Shown one piece after another: positions 49,436-56,910 of a stretch of DNA of 57,167 bases; within the stretch, counting starts at the first letter, position 1; each line of letters opens with the position of its first letter. The notes under the pieces were generated by a model that saw only the letters and a list, made by a program, of their open reading frames with translations, was not told where the DNA came from and ran no database searches. The translations under genes were made by a program, and so were the position numbers. Origin of the DNA: Prevotella sp. (GTDB lineage: Bacteria; Bacteroidota; Bacteroidia; Bacteroidales; Bacteroidaceae); the NCBI GenBank assembly GCA_017471245.1, contig JAFUVB010000036.1, positions 1 to 57,167 of the forward strand. Direction: 5' to 3'.

Positions 49436-49467
49436 TTTGCGATATTCGGTATTTATGTGTATTTTTG
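49436..49467 (+). promoter_or_regulatory. leu operon promoter
   Basis: TTTG (49436-49439), 20 nt, TATTTTTG (49460-49467). Transcription should begin about 49472-49475, 36-39 nt before the leader ATG. A small GGC/GCC stem (about 49477-49490) lies in the untranslated part. Confidence 0.8.
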
Positions 49468-49510
49468 CAGCGCAATGGCGTAATTGCCGTTCCATTAAAC
49501 ATACAGAAGA

Positions 49511-49594
49511 ATGAAAAATCTGAGCACAAACCTATACATTATTAATATTATCCGACTGCAAAGAGCGGGCGGAAGTGTAAAGGTGTGCAGGTAG
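49511..49594 (+). CDS. leuL: leu operon leader peptide
   Basis: 27 codons, ATG 49511 to TAG 49592-49594. Nine codons specify branched-chain residues: Leu4, Leu8, Ile10, Ile11, Ile13, Ile14, Leu16, Val23 and Val25, including one rare CTA. Ribosomes stalling at codons 4-16 would leave the antiterminator strand (49569-49584) free; ribosomes reaching the stop would cover it. No other function is expected of such a peptide. It is too short for gene finders and is identified from its place between promoter and attenuator. Confidence 0.8.
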   Translation: MKNLSTNLYIINIIRLQRAGGSVKVCR

Positions 49595-49650
49595 CAATGC
49601 ACGTGATATGATTAGAAACCTTTCCACTTCCGCAGTGCGAAAGGTTTTTT
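49569..49650 (+). terminator. leu attenuator: antiterminator and terminator
   Basis: Terminator: AAACCTTTC (49616-49624) pairs with GAAAGGTTT (49639-49647), extended by CACT/AGTG across one bulged C, loop TCCGC, then a T-run to 49650. Antiterminator: GCGGAAGTGTAAAGGT (49569-49584), inside the leader peptide gene, pairs with 49618-49633 at 15 of 16 positions and so removes the 5' arm of the terminator. A pause hairpin GTGCA/TGCAC (49585-49589, 49598-49602) lies between them. Confidence 0.85.
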
Positions 49651-49718
49651 GTTTCTGTAAAATTTATTCACATCAAATGGCGAACAAAAAGGTAAAAAGA
49701 TTATAAAAAAAGAATGAC

Positions 49719-51218
49719 ATGAGTGAAAGATTATTTATTTTCGACACTACGCTGAGAGATGGAGAGCAGGTTCCCGGCTGCCAGTTGAACACCGTTGAGA
49801 AGATACAGGTGGCAAAACAGCTGGAACAACTGGGCGTTGATGTGATTGAAGCCGGGTTCCCCATTTCAAGTCCTGGTGATTTCAATTCCGTAATCGAGAT
49901 TTCGAAAGCCGTTACGTGGCCAACCATCTGTGCGCTCACACGTGCCGTTGAGAAGGATATCGATGTGGCAGTGGAAAGTCTTCAGTATGCCAAGCGCAAA
50001 CGCATCCACACTGGCATCGGAACCAGCGATGCGCACATCAAGTATAAATTTAATTCCAACCGTGAGGAGATTATCGAGCGTGCAGTGGCTGCCGTGAAAT
50101 ATGCCAAGAAGTACGTGGAAGATGTGGAATTCTATGCCGAAGATGCCGGGCGCACGGATAATGAGTATCTGGCACGGGTGATTGAAGCAGTGATCAAGGC
50201 AGGTGCCACGGTTGTTAACATACCCGACACCACGGGCTATTGCCTGCCAGCCGAATATGGAGAGAAGATAAAATACCTCAAGGAGCATGTCGACGGCATC
50301 GAAAATGCCATCATCTCAACGCACTGCCACAACGATCTCGGCATGGCAACGGCCAATACGTTCAGTGGAGTGGTAAACGGTGCGCGCCAAGTGGAGGTTA
50401 CCATTAACGGCATAGGTGAGCGTGCGGGCAACACTTCGCTCGAAGAAATTGCCATGATCCTGAAGTGCCACAAACATCTGGATATCGACACGAACATCAA
50501 CACCACCAAGATTTATCCCACCAGCAGGATGGTTTCGGGATTGATGAATATGCCCGTTCAGCCTAACAAGGCGATTGTGGGGCGCAATGCCTTTGCCCAT
50601 TCCAGCGGAATCCATCAGGATGGCGTGCTGAAAAACGTGCAGACCTACGAGATTATCAACCCCAAGGATGTGGGACTCGATGATAATTCCATCGTGCTTA
50701 CGGCACGCAGCGGCAGGGCAGCTCTGAAATACCGGCTCGAAACATTGGGCGTGAGCATCGAGAATGACAAGAAGCTGGATGCCTTGTATAACAAGTTCCT
50801 GGCACTTGCCGACAGAAAGAAAGAGGTGAACGATGATGAAATCCTCACGTTGGCTGGTGCCGATCAGTCGGATAACCATGCCGTGCGCCTTGATTTCTTG
50901 CAAGTTACAACCGGTATGGGTGTAAGGAGCGTGGCAAGCATAGGTATTGATATCAGCGGACAGAAGTTTGAAGCAGCCGCCACGGGCAACGGTCCTGTGG
51001 ATGCAGCCATCAAAGGACTTAAGAAAATCATTCAGAAGCAGATGACCTTGAAGGAGTTCACCATCCAGGCTATATCCAAAGGTTCTGATGACATGGGTAA
51101 GGTTCACATGCAAGTGGAATACAACGGCAGCGTGTATTACGGCTTCGGGGCGAACACCGACATTGTGACGGCATCTGTCGAAGCTTACATCGACTGTATC
51201 AATAAATTCAGGAATTAG
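49719..51218 (+). CDS. leuA: 2-isopropylmalate synthase
   Basis: 499 residues, cytoplasmic. Condenses acetyl-CoA with 2-oxoisovalerate, the committed step to leucine. The DRE-TIM barrel shows [16 protein letters not shown] (Arg13, Asp14), the metal-binding [14 protein letters not shown] and [28 protein letters not shown], and a C-terminal regulatory LeuA domain (about 385-499). Feedback inhibition by leucine is a family trait. First structural gene after the attenuator; leuC follows after 33 nt. Confidence 0.96.
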
Positions 51219-51251: not shown

Positions 51252-52646
51252 ATGAATACACTGTTTGATAAAATATGGGACAAGCACGTAGTGCAGATGA
51301 TCAGCGACGGTCCTATACAATTGTATATCGACCGCTTGTATTGTCATGAAGTAACGTCGCCGCAGGCTTTCGAGGGCATTCGTGCAAGAGGACTGAAGTG
51401 CTTCCGGCCGAATCAGATATTCTGCATGCCCGACCACAACACACCCACGCACGATCAGGACAAGCCCATTGCTGATCCTGTATCGCGAAAACAGGTGGAT
51501 ACGCTGAAAAAAAATGCCGAAGAGTTCGGGTTAACCTACTTTGGAATGATGGATTCAAATAATGGAATCATTCACGTGGTTGGTCCAGAAAAAGGGCTTT
51601 CGTTGCCAGGAATGACCATCGTTTGCGGCGATTCGCATACAAGCACTCATGGTGCTGTGGGTGCAGTTGCATTCGGAATCGGCACTTCCGAGGTGGAAAT
51701 GGTGCTGGCATCACAGTGCATCATGCAGCAGAAACCCAAGTCGATGCGTATCACCATCAACGGAAAACTGGCACCGTGTGTAACAGCCAAGGATGTTGCT
51801 CTGTATCTCATGCACAGGCTTACCACAAGCGGAGCTACCGGATATTTCGTGGAATATGCCGGTGAGGTGGTGCGGAATATGAGCATGGAAGGTAGGCTTA
51901 CACTCTGTAATCTCTCGATAGAGATGGGAGCACGTGGCGGTTTTGTGGCACCCGATGATACCACTTTTGCTTATCTGAAGGGGCGTGGCTATGCTCCAAA
52001 AGGCAAAGAATGGGAGAAAAGCGTGGCTTATTGGAGAACGCTGAAGAGTGATGACGATGCCGTTTTCGACAGGGAATTGGTTTTCGATGCTCAGGATATA
52101 GAACCCAGAATCACATACGGCACGAATCCAGGCATGGGAATTGGCATCAGCGAAAGCATTCCCTCCACAGATGAAATCCCTGAGAACGGCAAGGCGGGCT
52201 TTATGAAGGCTTTGGATTATATGGGATTTATGCCAGGCGAAAAACTATTGGGGCATCCTGTAGATTATGTTTTCCTTGGCGCTTGCACGAATGGGCGCAT
52301 TGAGGATTTCCGCGCCTTTACTTCTGTGGTTAAGGGTCGCCGAAAGGCAGACAACATTGTTGCTTGGTTGGTTCCAGGCTCTTGGACAGTTGCGCGACAG
52401 ATACATGAAGAAGGACTTGATACCGTATTGAACGAGGCTGGTTTTGAAATCCGCCAGCCCGGTTGTTCTGCCTGTCTTGCCATGAACGATGACAAAATAC
52501 CCGCAGGAGCGTATGCGGTGTCAACCAGTAACAGGAATTTTGAAGGTCGTCAAGGCATCAGTGCTCGCACCATTTTGGCATCGCCGCTCGTTGCCGCAGC
52601 AGCTGCCGTAACGGGAGTGATAACCGATCCGAGAGTATTAATCTAA
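51252..52646 (+). CDS. leuC: 3-isopropylmalate dehydratase large subunit
   Basis: 464 residues, aconitase family. With LeuD it isomerises 2- to 3-isopropylmalate (and citramalate to 3-methylmalate). [4Fe-4S] ligands are in [16 protein letters not shown] and [13 protein letters not shown]; substrate segments include [36 protein letters not shown] and ATSNR-like [13 protein letters not shown]. Length normal. leuD begins 13 nt later. Confidence 0.97.
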
Positions 52647-52659
52647 AAAACGAACAGCA

Positions 52660-53256
52660 ATGAAGCAGAAATTCAATATTATTACGAGCACATGTGTTCC
52701 TCTTCCTTTAGAGAACATCGACACCGACCAGATCATTCCGGCGCGCTATCTGAAGGCTACTACCCGCGAAGAACGCTTTTTCGGAGAGAATCTGTTCCGC
52801 GATTGGTGCTACAATGCTGACGGAACGCTGAACAAGGAATTCGTTTTGAACGACAGCAGATATAGTGGTTGTATCCTCGTTGCAGGTAAGAACTTCGGCT
52901 GCGGGTCAAGTCGTGAACATGCTGCATGGGCTATTGCAGGCTACGGATTCAGGGTTGTGGTGAGCAGTTTCTTCGCCGATATCCACAAGAACAATGAACT
53001 GAACAACTTTGTGTTGCCGGTTACGGTGAGCGAAGAGTTTCTTTCCGAACTCTTTCACTGCATCCAGAAAGATCCGAAAACAGAGGTTGAAGTAAATCTT
53101 CCCGAACAAATCATAACTAACAAGAATACAGGAAGAAAAGAGTCATTTGCCATCAGCGGATACAAAAAGCACTGCTTGATGAACGGACTCGATGACATCG
53201 ACTATCTGATACAGAACAAAAGGATGATCGAAGAGTGGGAACAAAACAACAGATAG
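52660..53256 (+). CDS. leuD: 3-isopropylmalate dehydratase small subunit
   Basis: 198 residues, the swivelling aconitase domain 4. Shows CVPLPLENIDTDQIIPARYLK and the substrate loop GKNFGCGSSREHAAWAIAGYGFRVVVSSFFADI. Partner of LeuC, encoded 13 nt upstream. Four nt separate its stop from the cimA start, indicating coupled translation. Confidence 0.97.
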   Translation: MKQKFNIITSTCVPLPLENIDTDQIIPARYLKATTREERFFGENLFRDWCYNADGTLNKEFVLNDSRYSGCILVAGKNFGCGSSREHAAWAIAGYGFRVVVSSFFADIHKNNELNNFVLPVTVSEEFLSELFHCIQKDPKTEVEVNLPEQIITNKNTGRKESFAISGYKKHCLMNGLDDIDYLIQNKRMIEEWEQNNR

Positions 53257-53260
53257 GAAT

Positions 53261-54823
53261 ATGGGAACGAGTGAAAGCATCAATTCTTACCACCGACTGC
53301 AGCCGTTTATCGAGATAATGGATTGCACTCTGCGCGACGGAGAGCAAACTTCGGGCGTCAGTTTCCTACCTCATGAGAAGCTGATGATAGCCCGAGTGTT
53401 GCTGCATGATGTGAATGTCGACCGCATTGAGGTGGCTTCAGCGCGCGTGAGCGATGGAGAGAAAGATGCGGTGAGCATGATATGCCGCTACGCAGAACAG
53501 CATGGAATGCTCAGCAGAGTAGAAGTGTTGGGCTTTGTTGATGGCGGTCTGTCGGTGAATTGGATAGCAGAAGCTGGCTGCAAGGTTGTTAATCTCTTGG
53601 CAAAAGGCAGTGAGAAGCATTGCAACGCACAGCTGAACAAAAGCGTTGACAGTCACATTGCCGATATTCTGGAGTGTGTCAGAAAAGCAGAAGAGAAAGG
53701 CATGGTTGTCAATCTATACCTCGAAGACTGGAGCAACGGCATGAAAGATTCGCCGGAATATGTGTATTCCATGCTCGATGTGTTGACAAAAACATCCATC
53801 CGAAGGTTCATGCTGCCCGACACATTGGGTGTATTGAATCCTCTTCAGGTGATAGAATACATGCGCAAAATGCAGAAACGCTATCCAGAAACTCACTTCG
53901 ACTTTCATGCACACAACGACTACGACCTTGCGGTAAGCAATTCTCTCGCTGCTGTTTTAAGCGGTTGCAAGGGGCTCCATGTAACTGTCAACGGGTTAGG
54001 AGAGCGTTGCGGCAATGCATCATTGTCGAGTGTTCAAGTGATTCTGAAGGATCAGTTCCATGCAAAAACCAATATTCATGAAGGTCGGTTGAACGAAATA
54101 AGCAGGCTGGTTGAAGGCTATAGCGGCATAGCCGTTGCTCCAAACCAACCCGTCATTGGCGAAAATGTGTTCACACAGGTGGCAGGAGTTCATGCTGATG
54201 GGGATTCAAAAGCAGGCCTATACTACAATGCACTGAAACCAGAACGGTTTGGAAGGAAACGGGAATATGCGCTCGGAAAGAACAGTGGCAGGGCTAACAT
54301 TGCAAAAAACCTTGAAGAACTGGGGCTTGTGCTCACTCCCGAACAGACACAAAAGGTGACACGGCGCATCACGGAATTAGGCGACCGCAAGGAAATTGTG
54401 ACACAAGAGGATCTTCCGTTTATTGTCAGTGATGTGCTGAAGCACGATGTGCCAGAGGAAAAAATAAAACTCGTGAGCTATATGGTTAGCACTGCCTACG
54501 GACTGAAGCCCTTGGCGAGCATCAAAGTGGAGATAGGCGGCAGACAATACGAAGCTGATTCAACAGGCGACGGGCAGTATGATGCATTCGTAAAGGCTCT
54601 CAGAAAGATATACAAAGACAATCTGGGGCGCACTTTCCCAATTCTTGCCAATTACGCGGTGAGCATTCCTCCCGGTGGACGAACAGATGCTTTGGTGCAG
54701 ACCGTGATAACGTGGCATAATGGCGATAAACTGATCCGCACACGAGGGCTTGATGCCGACCAGACAGAGGCAGCCATCAAAGCTACAATCAAGATGCTGA
54801 ACATCTTCGAAACCCAAAACTGA
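53261..54823 (+). CDS. cimA: citramalate synthase / alpha-isopropylmalate synthase-like enzyme
   Basis: 520 residues, second DRE-TIM acyl-CoA lyase in the operon. MDCTLRDGEQTSGVSF, HFDFHAHNDYDLAVSN, GLHVTVNGLGERCGNASLSSVQ and AGVHADGDSKAGLY are family motifs; the VHADGDSK form in place of IHQDG and a longer C-terminal domain fit the CimA/LeuA2 group. It probably condenses acetyl-CoA with pyruvate to (R)-citramalate, which LeuCD and LeuB turn into 2-oxobutyrate for isoleucine. A homocitrate or second isopropylmalate synthase role cannot be excluded. Four nt after leuD. Confidence 0.78.
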   Translation: MGTSESINSYHRLQPFIEIMDCTLRDGEQTSGVSFLPHEKLMIARVLLHDVNVDRIEVASARVSDGEKDAVSMICRYAEQHGMLSRVEVLGFVDGGLSVNWIAEAGCKVVNLLAKGSEKHCNAQLNKSVDSHIADILECVRKAEEKGMVVNLYLEDWSNGMKDSPEYVYSMLDVLTKTSIRRFMLPDTLGVLNPLQVIEYMRKMQKRYPETHFDFHAHNDYDLAVSNSLAAVLSGCKGLHVTVNGLGERCGNASLSSVQVILKDQFHAKTNIHEGRLNEISRLVEGYSGIAVAPNQPVIGENVFTQVAGVHADGDSKAGLYYNALKPERFGRKREYALGKNSGRANIAKNLEELGLVLTPEQTQKVTRRITELGDRKEIVTQEDLPFIVSDVLKHDVPEEKIKLVSYMVSTAYGLKPLASIKVEIGGRQYEADSTGDGQYDAFVKALRKIYKDNLGRTFPILANYAVSIPPGGRTDALVQTVITWHNGDKLIRTRGLDADQTEAAIKATIKMLNIFETQN

Positions 54824-54916: not shown

Positions 54917-54983
54917 GAAATAACGATTGCGAGCAAGTAAGAACAATAATAAAACGGAAGAAAAACTTAATAAACAACAGACT

Positions 54984-56045
54984 ATGAAACTGAAAATTGC
55001 AGTATTGTCCGGCGATGGCATCGGACCGGAGATTATGAAACAAGGAGTGGCTGTGCTGAACGCGATTGCGGCAAGATACAATCACGAATTCATTTACGAA
55101 GATTCGATATGTGGAGCACACGCTATCGATGAGGTGGGAGATCCTTTTCCTGAATCCACATTTCAAACCTGCATGAACGCAGATGCCGTCTTCTTTGCAG
55201 CAGTAGGCGATTTGCGCTACGACAACAACCCAACATCGAAAGTGAGACCTGAACAGGGACTGCTTGCGATGCGTAAGAAACTGGGACTTTTTGCTAATAT
55301 CCGCCCTGTAACAACATTCGATTGCCTGCTCCATAAGAGTCCGTTGAAGGACGAATTGATAAAAGGTGCCGACTTCGTTGTGATACGCGAGCTCACAGGA
55401 GGCATGTATTTTGGAGAAAAGTACCAAGACAACGACATGGCTTATGATACCGACATCTACACGCGACCAGAGATAGTGCGCATCCTTCGCGTGGCTTTCG
55501 AGATGTCTCAAAAGCGGAAAAAACACCTCACGGTGGTGGATAAGGCCAACGTACTGGCTTCTTCGCGGCTGTGGCGACAGATTGCCAAAGAAATGGAACC
55601 ACAATATCCCGACGTGGAAACCGACTATATGTTCATCGACAACGCTTCAATGCGGGTGCTTACAGAGCCTCGATTCTTTGATGTGATAGTGACCGAGAAC
55701 ACGTTTGGTGACATCTTGACCGACGAAACCAGCTGCATCACTGGCAGCATGGGACTTCAGCCATCGGCTTCCTTAGGTGAACACACACCGTTGTTTGAGC
55801 CTGTGCACGGCTCTTGGCCACAGGCGGCAGGCAAAAACATCGCTAATCCGCTTGCCCAGATACTCTCCGCCGCTATGCTCTTGGAGCATTTCGGTCTGAA
55901 TGAGGAGGGAAAGGCTGTGAGGAACGCCGTAAATGCAAGCCTCGATGCCAATGTGCGCACACCGGAAATACAGGTGGAAGGCGGTAGAACCTACGGCACT
56001 GTTGAGGTGGGCGAGTGGATTGCCGAATACATAAAGAACGAATAG
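54984..56045 (+). CDS. leuB: 3-isopropylmalate dehydrogenase
   Basis: 353 residues from ATG 54984, the standard length; an in-frame extension of 19 Lys/Asn-rich codons upstream is rejected. NAD-dependent oxidative decarboxylation of 3-isopropylmalate. Features: [14 protein letters not shown], the [21 protein letters not shown] loop, [48 protein letters not shown] and [18 protein letters not shown]. Last gene of the leu operon. Confidence 0.97.
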
Positions 56046-56836: not shown

Positions 56837-56910
56837 TGGAGGTGCCTAGCGGAGTCGAACCGCTCTATACGGTTTTGCAGACCGTCACATAACCGCTTTG
56901 TTAAGGCACC
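56837..56910 (-). tRNA. tRNA-Cys (GCA)
   Basis: Acceptor stem GGTGCCT (56904-56910) with AGGCACC (56841-56847), discriminator U (56840) and encoded CCA (56837-56839). The anticodon GCA is at 56876-56878 within a perfect 5-bp stem; the T arm is AGCGG-TTCGACT-CCGCT. U73 and GCA are the main identity elements of cysteine tRNA. Confidence 0.96.

Follow-up and report, generated by a model that had tools for sequence, protein, structure and literature searches.

The leader that precedes leuA in the stretch of Prevotella sp. DNA analysed here (57,167 nt, contig JAFUVB010000036.1 of assembly GCA_017471245.1; hereafter the window) very probably controls the operon leuA-leuC-leuD-cimA-like-leuB by ribosome-mediated attenuation of transcription, with charged Leu-tRNA and Ile-tRNA as the signals sensed, as judged from sequence comparison and modelled RNA folds. 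A previous sequence-only reading of this DNA had proposed classical ribosome-mediated attenuation, a proposal that is supported by Leu/Ile-rich leaders in relatives, a covarying terminator, the mutual fit of the antiterminator and terminator strands, and the placement of the codons. All elements listed in that reading were found at, or within one base of, the positions it had assigned to them (Table 1).

The leader and its operon in the window

Table 1. Features of the leu leader and operon; positions refer to the window.
Feature	Position	Strand	Basis or detail
Promoter, Bacteroidota-type	49436..49467	+	TTTG - 20 nt - TAnnTTTG (TATTTTTG), read in sequence
Leader peptide ORF	49511..49594	+	27 codons + TAG, MKNLSTNLYIINIIRLQRAGGSVKVCR
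Control-codon stretch	49520..49558	+	Leu4, Leu8, Ile10, Ile11, Ile13, Ile14, Leu16; permissive by fold
Hairpin H1	49551..49573	+	49551-49559 with 49565-49573, 8/9 pairs; candidate 1:2 / pause hairpin
Antiterminator strand GCGGAAGTGTAAAGGT	49569..49584	+	pairs with 49618-49633
Intrinsic terminator	49616..49650	+	stem 49616-49627 with 49635-49647, U tract 49645-49650
leuA, 2-isopropylmalate synthase	49719..51218	+	TIGR00973, 665 bits, over cut-off
leuC	51252..52646	+	TIGR00170, over cut-off
leuD	52660..53256	+	TIGR00171, over cut-off
cimA-like (citramalate synthase, isoleucine branch)	53261..54823	+	NF042433 CimA, 606.6 bits, below cut-off 950
leuB	54927..56045	+	TIGR00169, over cut-off

The consensus promoter that had been claimed ahead of the leader is present and is of the Bacteroidota type: TTTG at 49436-49439 is followed by a 20-nt spacer and TATTTTTG at 49460-49467, TTTG-20-TAnnTTTG being the promoter form of this phylum. 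A sigma-70 scan of the window listed no plus-strand site at 49436-49467. Judging from the promoter, RNA polymerase would start near 49474; a hairpin of 7 pairs is predicted at 49474-49491, close to where the transcript probably begins. The leader gene extends from an ATG at 49511 to a TAG at 49592-49594, and the nine Leu/Ile/Val codons previously counted among its 27 codons are confirmed as 3 Leu, 4 Ile and 2 Val.

Segment 49569-49584 is Watson-Crick complementary to 49618-49633 at 15 of 16 positions, which reproduces the earlier count on the sequence itself. With G-U pairs allowed, this is the best match of any plus-strand 16-mer of the window, the runner-up score of 13/16 being reached at 7 places. 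The strand 49618-49633 is shared, and in the predicted pairing this makes antiterminator and terminator mutually exclusive. The intrinsic terminator lies where it had been described, and its pairs covary in relatives; a simple terminator scan of the window did not list the 49616-49650 stem, for which the bulged C at 49638 is the probable reason. Hairpin H1, which the earlier reading did not contain, is situated within the leader gene, and its 3' end takes in the initial 3 nt of GGAAGUG. It overlaps the antiterminator by these 3 nt only, and both can form together. When the segment 49472-49700 was folded, as had been suggested, it gave a z-score of -3.87, with 0 of 200 shuffles as stable; the fold and the conservation of the arrangement in relatives bear out the view that such an ordering is unlikely by chance.

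The composition of the operon explains why two amino acids might be sensed. For its fourth gene the best NCBIfam model is (R)-citramalate synthase (606.6 bits, under its cut-off of 950), an enzyme that feeds isoleucine synthesis through the LeuCDB enzymes shared with leucine. With leuA, a cimA-like gene and shared LeuCDB, the operon can make precursors of both Leu and Ile, and the Ile codons of the leader make sense because the operon contains the cimA-like gene; a single operon serving both products could be set by both amino acids. The order leuA-leuC-leuD-cimA recurs in 20 of 20 leu operons downstream of Bacteroidales matches, with cimA 57-71% identical to that of the window, and leuB comes next in 19 of the 20 within the stretch taken. 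A tRNA gene is located downstream of the leu operon, on the minus strand at 56840-56910.

Conservation and covariation upstream of leuA

The 110 leuA loci gathered are the best matches of each search and hence biased to close relatives; among the named sources of these loci are Segatella copri, S. albensis, S. baroniae, Hoylesella oralis, Phocaeicola and Bacteroides. After removal of L032, L050, L076 and L099 (too short or with N) and merging of upstreams more than 95% alike, 97 remained, the window included. Of these 97, 83 show the layout ahead of leuA, window included: terminator and antiterminator were recognised by pattern in 79, and the covariance model R1 added 4 (L083, L044, L009 and L090, each E <= 0.0002). 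Fourteen of the 97 are without an attenuator recognised by pattern and R1, and 12 show neither (L030, L040, L041, L065, L066, L069, L072, L085, L086, L088, L091 and L105); by eye, the promoter sits close to leuA in several of these 12 loci. L078 has a leader-like ORF with a different hairpin and no R1 match. In L016 a terminator-like hairpin lies directly behind the promoter (R1 E 0.035) with no leader ORF between, perhaps a decayed attenuator. The same locus lends something to the idea that the unit is a premature terminator accompanied by an incidental or independent small ORF, yielding an sRNA or a trans-acting peptide with termination not set by amino-acid supply, as does the transcript of about 175 nt that the promoter-terminator unit of the window would produce.

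A rule-based choice of ORF finds a leader gene in 76 of the 79 rows of alignment A2, which includes the window; the rows outside the 76 are L024 and L043, whose leader-like ORFs stop before GGAAGU, and L063, with only a 47-codon ORF. The pattern TTTG-20-TAnnTTTG occurs 5' of the leader ATG in 68 of the 76, compared with 24 of 1520 mononucleotide shuffles. None of the 76 leaders has fewer than 6 Leu+Ile codons, the averages being 4.7 Ile and 3.7 Leu. In 8 of them GGAAGU is read in another frame and the peptide ends differently, for example in SRK, with the RNA letters preserved; the constraint is thus on the RNA, which speaks against a peptide acting in trans.

Covariation was counted on A2 (79 rows, window included; the alignment covers the leader without its 5' part), with shuffle and permutation controls that leave the relatedness of the rows in place. 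The terminator is paired in 90.0% of cells and carries two-sided changes in 42 cells, against 14.2 in shuffles (0/500 as many); 7 pairs show such changes, against 4.7. H1, which was put forward after inspection of the same rows on which its covariation was counted, is paired in 85.1% of cells, with two-sided changes in 30 cells against 4.1 (0/500), although the number of pairs with such a change (4 against 2.6, 83/500) is not unusual, and one H1 pair is unformed in 50 of the 79 rows. It is present in 67 of 76 nascent folds, its segment having a mean of -7.7 kcal/mol against -3.1 for mononucleotide shuffles. Of terminator, H1 and antiterminator, RNAalifold on the aligned part predicted the first alone.

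For the antiterminator helix, 90.1% of cells are paired, and fixed-column covariation amounts to 5 cells against 6.2 in shuffles, which would fit the same letters serving terminator, antiterminator and leader gene at once. The alignment of relatives proposed in the sequence-only reading thus yields a conserved layout, Leu/Ile-rich leader ORFs and compensatory changes in the terminator; that reading had staked its case on covariation and leader conservation, of which the former is seen in terminator and H1 but not in the fixed columns of the antiterminator helix. The two strands nevertheless match within each locus: with its own terminator the antiterminator forms a duplex of -17.37 kcal/mol on average, against -16.92 for permuted partners (79 rows, kinship retained; 0/2000). 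Own-terminator fit was likewise unmatched in 2000 permutations for 21 ilvD matches described below, and was equalled in 4 of 2000 for 28 further leuA matches, whose arms were cut crudely. The three apical letters of the terminator, UUC, take no part in its stem and are nevertheless conserved in 79, 78 and 77 of the 79 rows, as pairing with the antiterminator would require.

These results bear on two other readings of the leader. Leader peptides of other bacteria can act on translation or on Rho-dependent termination, and a leader acting here mainly in one of these ways, instead of through the intrinsic terminator, would have that precedent. Since a covarying hairpin with a U tract stands before leuA and the antiterminator strands fit that hairpin, we regard such a mode as extremely improbable. 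Nor is much to be said for a ligand- or tRNA-binding leader of the riboswitch or T-box type with an incidental ORF, even though the strong conservation of the RNA letters GGAAGUG and CACUUCC is what such an element might display. The mutual pairing of the two strands explains the conservation of both, and the consensus fold of the aligned part, which excludes the 5' part of the leader, is the terminator only. An Rfam scan of the leader returned no family at gathering score and 7 weak matches at E <= 5, to unrelated families. The T-box and riboswitch family models do not match the window leader, nor does the Bacteroid-trp model RF01692, and the enterobacterial Leu_leader family appears neither at gathering score nor among the matches at E <= 5. 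Hardly any credence is left for a binding leader. As the attenuator matches no Rfam model, annotation that relies on Rfam overlooks it.

Leader codons and the predicted switch

For the attenuator, the informative question is which codons would, with a ribosome halted on them, leave the antiterminator strand free. Each of the 76 leaders was folded once per codon, all RNA through 12 nt past the start of the A-site being masked and the nascent RNA ending after CACUUCC. The nascent antiterminator is predicted to form in 76/76 leaders when the A-site lies 14 to 4 codons before GGAAGU, in 72/76 at -3, in 52/76 at -2 and in 6/76 at -1 codons. From GGAAGU onward and at the stop codon it forms in 0/76, in line with the earlier expectation that a ribosome finishing the leader masks the strand; the value at the stop follows partly by construction, as the footprint covers the antiterminator strand.

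Over the 76 leaders, the antiterminator can form with the A-site on 586 of 638 Leu/Ile codons, as opposed to 31 of 128 Val codons. No leader has fewer than 4 of these permissive Leu/Ile codons, and permissive Val codons are absent from 48 of the 76. Of the permissive Val codons, 24 of 31 stand two codons before GGAAGU, where 24 of 35 Val codons are permissive, for which reason some relatives may weakly sense Val. Of the nine Leu/Ile/Val codons in the window leader, the 7 for Leu or Ile are permissive and Val23 and Val25 are not; a ribosome on either covers the antiterminator, so these are not control codons, and Val was rejected as an amino acid sensed by the window operon. The earlier claim that stalling on leader codons frees the antiterminator therefore holds, by fold, for the seven Leu/Ile codons and fails for the two Val codons. 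Such a placement, with Leu/Ile codons where stalling frees the antiterminator and Val codons mostly elsewhere, would not be expected of an incidental ORF beside a premature terminator.

With the full terminator present, the antiterminator is the equilibrium minimum in no more than 30 of the 76 leaders (A-site at -8), and with the ribosome at the stop the terminator is the minimum-energy state in 76/76. With the antiterminator favoured at equilibrium in a minority of leaders, the switch must depend on the order in which the RNA segments are made. The window's own antiterminator is the favoured equilibrium fold without a ribosome and with the A-site anywhere from 36 to 12 nt before GGAAGU. Across the leaders, folds without a ribosome contain the antiterminator in 35/76 nascent and 2/76 complete leaders, and on this modelling termination in the absence of translation is not clearly encoded.

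We infer for the cell the following course of translation, stalling, pausing, termination and read-through. A ribosome would start on the leader gene at 49511, and H1, which can form as the leader gene is transcribed, may act as a pause signal that holds the polymerase for the ribosome. With ample Leu and Ile, the ribosome would reach the stop at 49592 and cover the antiterminator, so that the terminator forms and the transcript ends near 49650. If Leu or Ile were scarce, the ribosome would halt on one of the seven Leu/Ile codons (49520-49558) and leave 49569-49584 free; this strand would pair with 49618-49633 before the 3' arm of the terminator exists, and the polymerase would enter leuA.

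Codon usage differs between leaders and the genes that follow them. CTA makes up 92 of 284 leader Leu codons (32%) against 43 of 2407 (1.8%) in leuA of the same loci, and CGA 86 of 156 leader Arg codons against 75 of 1367, both leader counts including one wrongly picked leader among the 76. For CGA, the cause may be H1 pairing instead of sensing, or else slow decoding. In the Salmonella leu leader CUA is the control codon, and its replacement by CUG lowered sensitivity (PMC1183508).

Probable related attenuators and known systems

In its own genome, R1 finds this locus only (E 5.6e-18), apart from an opposite-strand shadow (E 2.0). The terminator signature CCTTTCNCACTTCC, tried as a marker of further sites in the genome with 1 mismatch allowed, was discarded, as it occurs at 4 places against 14 for the reversed control; none of the 4 is the window site, which is one base shorter. 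By eye, the 420 nt upstream of ilvD (C49:33256) and of hisG (C105) in the same genome contain no leader-terminator unit.

Across Bacteroidales, R1 matches 75 of 295 genomes at E <= 0.01, E-values being rough, with 94 places listed. Besides that of the window, 49 places were read, comprising the 29 that rank directly after it and 20 in genomes with at least 2 matches; the 44 others, mostly weaker, may include plain terminators. The gene that follows, identified by its signature residues, is leuA in 28 and ilvD in 21 of the 49, and no other; ilvD of the window's own genome (TIGR00110) bears the same N-terminal signature. The leaders of this design before ilvD are L142-L146, L148, L149, L151, L153, L155, L156 and L158-L161, together with L124, L125, L128, L131, L132 and L136, and most of all 21 have Val-rich leaders, e.g. 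MMNNVLHIILVVVLLVISR. At least 2 Val codons are found in 17 of 21 ilvD leaders and in 4 of 28 leuA leaders (Mann-Whitney p 1.3e-6 for the Val counts, kinship retained), where the leader is the most I/L/V-rich small ORF and the evidently wrong pick in L143 was left in. That the codon content of the leader follows the pathway is the strongest argument for specificity. As this content tracks the downstream gene, leuA or ilvD, we hold the sRNA or trans-acting peptide reading to be very unlikely.

In the wider taxonomic class, R1 matches 31 of 296 genomes, 21 of them outside Bacteroidales. Outside the order, 18 of 24 places were read by eye. Three are attenuator-like, one of them ilv-like and two, from a single genus, thrA-like; the rest look mostly like ordinary terminators. 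L169 and L177, from one genus of another order of the class, have Thr/Ile-rich leaders (MTINNTTIITIITTGINFGGR and MTINNTIITTIITTGIKDGGR), a terminator and then, by eye, an aspartokinase-like gene, and may be regarded as candidate threonine attenuators. In L180 the leader MKNIINIAVIIIIIIIR and a hairpin precede an ORF of 166 aa that resembles, by eye, an acetolactate synthase small subunit.

We lean slightly towards the view that Bacteroidales possess a lineage-specific, homologous family of branched-chain amino acid (BCAA) attenuators across leuA and ilvD operons, with codons, covarying hairpin and antiterminator packed into the leader gene and with retuning by exchange of Val against Leu/Ile. 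If so, the persistence of the family would imply close coupling of ribosome and polymerase in Bacteroidota, a phylum that makes little use of Shine-Dalgarno signals: attenuation needs a ribosome close behind RNA polymerase, and a conserved attenuator argues for transcription-translation coupling in Bacteroidales. Among the carriers of the attenuator is Segatella copri (L075), a species linked to the output of branched-chain amino acids in the gut.

An attenuator survey of 2004 by Vitreschak and colleagues reportedly predicted some cases in Bacteroidetes/Chlorobi. The mechanism is known, and its Bacteroidales family seems uncatalogued: the open-licence literature, among the matches listed, contained no leu or ilv attenuator of Bacteroidales. 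As of 2010, the authors of one paper knew of no leader-peptide system shown outside Proteobacteria and Actinobacteria (PMC2965389). For Flavobacterium psychrophilum, of the same phylum, transcripts have been mapped and strong indications reported that leader peptides attenuate amino-acid operons, a proposed mechanism of the same kind; the main-text section names no leu or ilv element (PMC9723704). Small ORFs resembling leader peptides are mentioned for B. thetaiotaomicron (PMC7366714). The Bacteroid-trp motif RF01692 is a candidate RNA of Bacteroidetes as well (Weinberg et al. 2010, PMC2864571), whose name, and name alone, points to trp genes and thus to another operon. The ilvBNC attenuator of C. 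glutamicum, for which a three-hairpin model was proposed, is likewise a BCAA attenuator and belongs to another phylum and operon (PMC11857589).

The closest likeness is to the enterobacterial leu, ilv, thr, his and trp attenuators (leuL type), which likewise combine a leader ORF with control codons and alternative antiterminator and terminator structures, and have an upstream hairpin able to pause polymerase, a role for which H1 is the candidate here. The use of the Leu codon CUA is shared with the Salmonella leu leader (PMC1183508). In contrast to the leuL type, the leader gene itself contains both H1 and the antiterminator strand, Leu and Ile codons occur together, and 8 of the 76 leaders have a reading frame whose end falls within GGAAGU or shortly after it.
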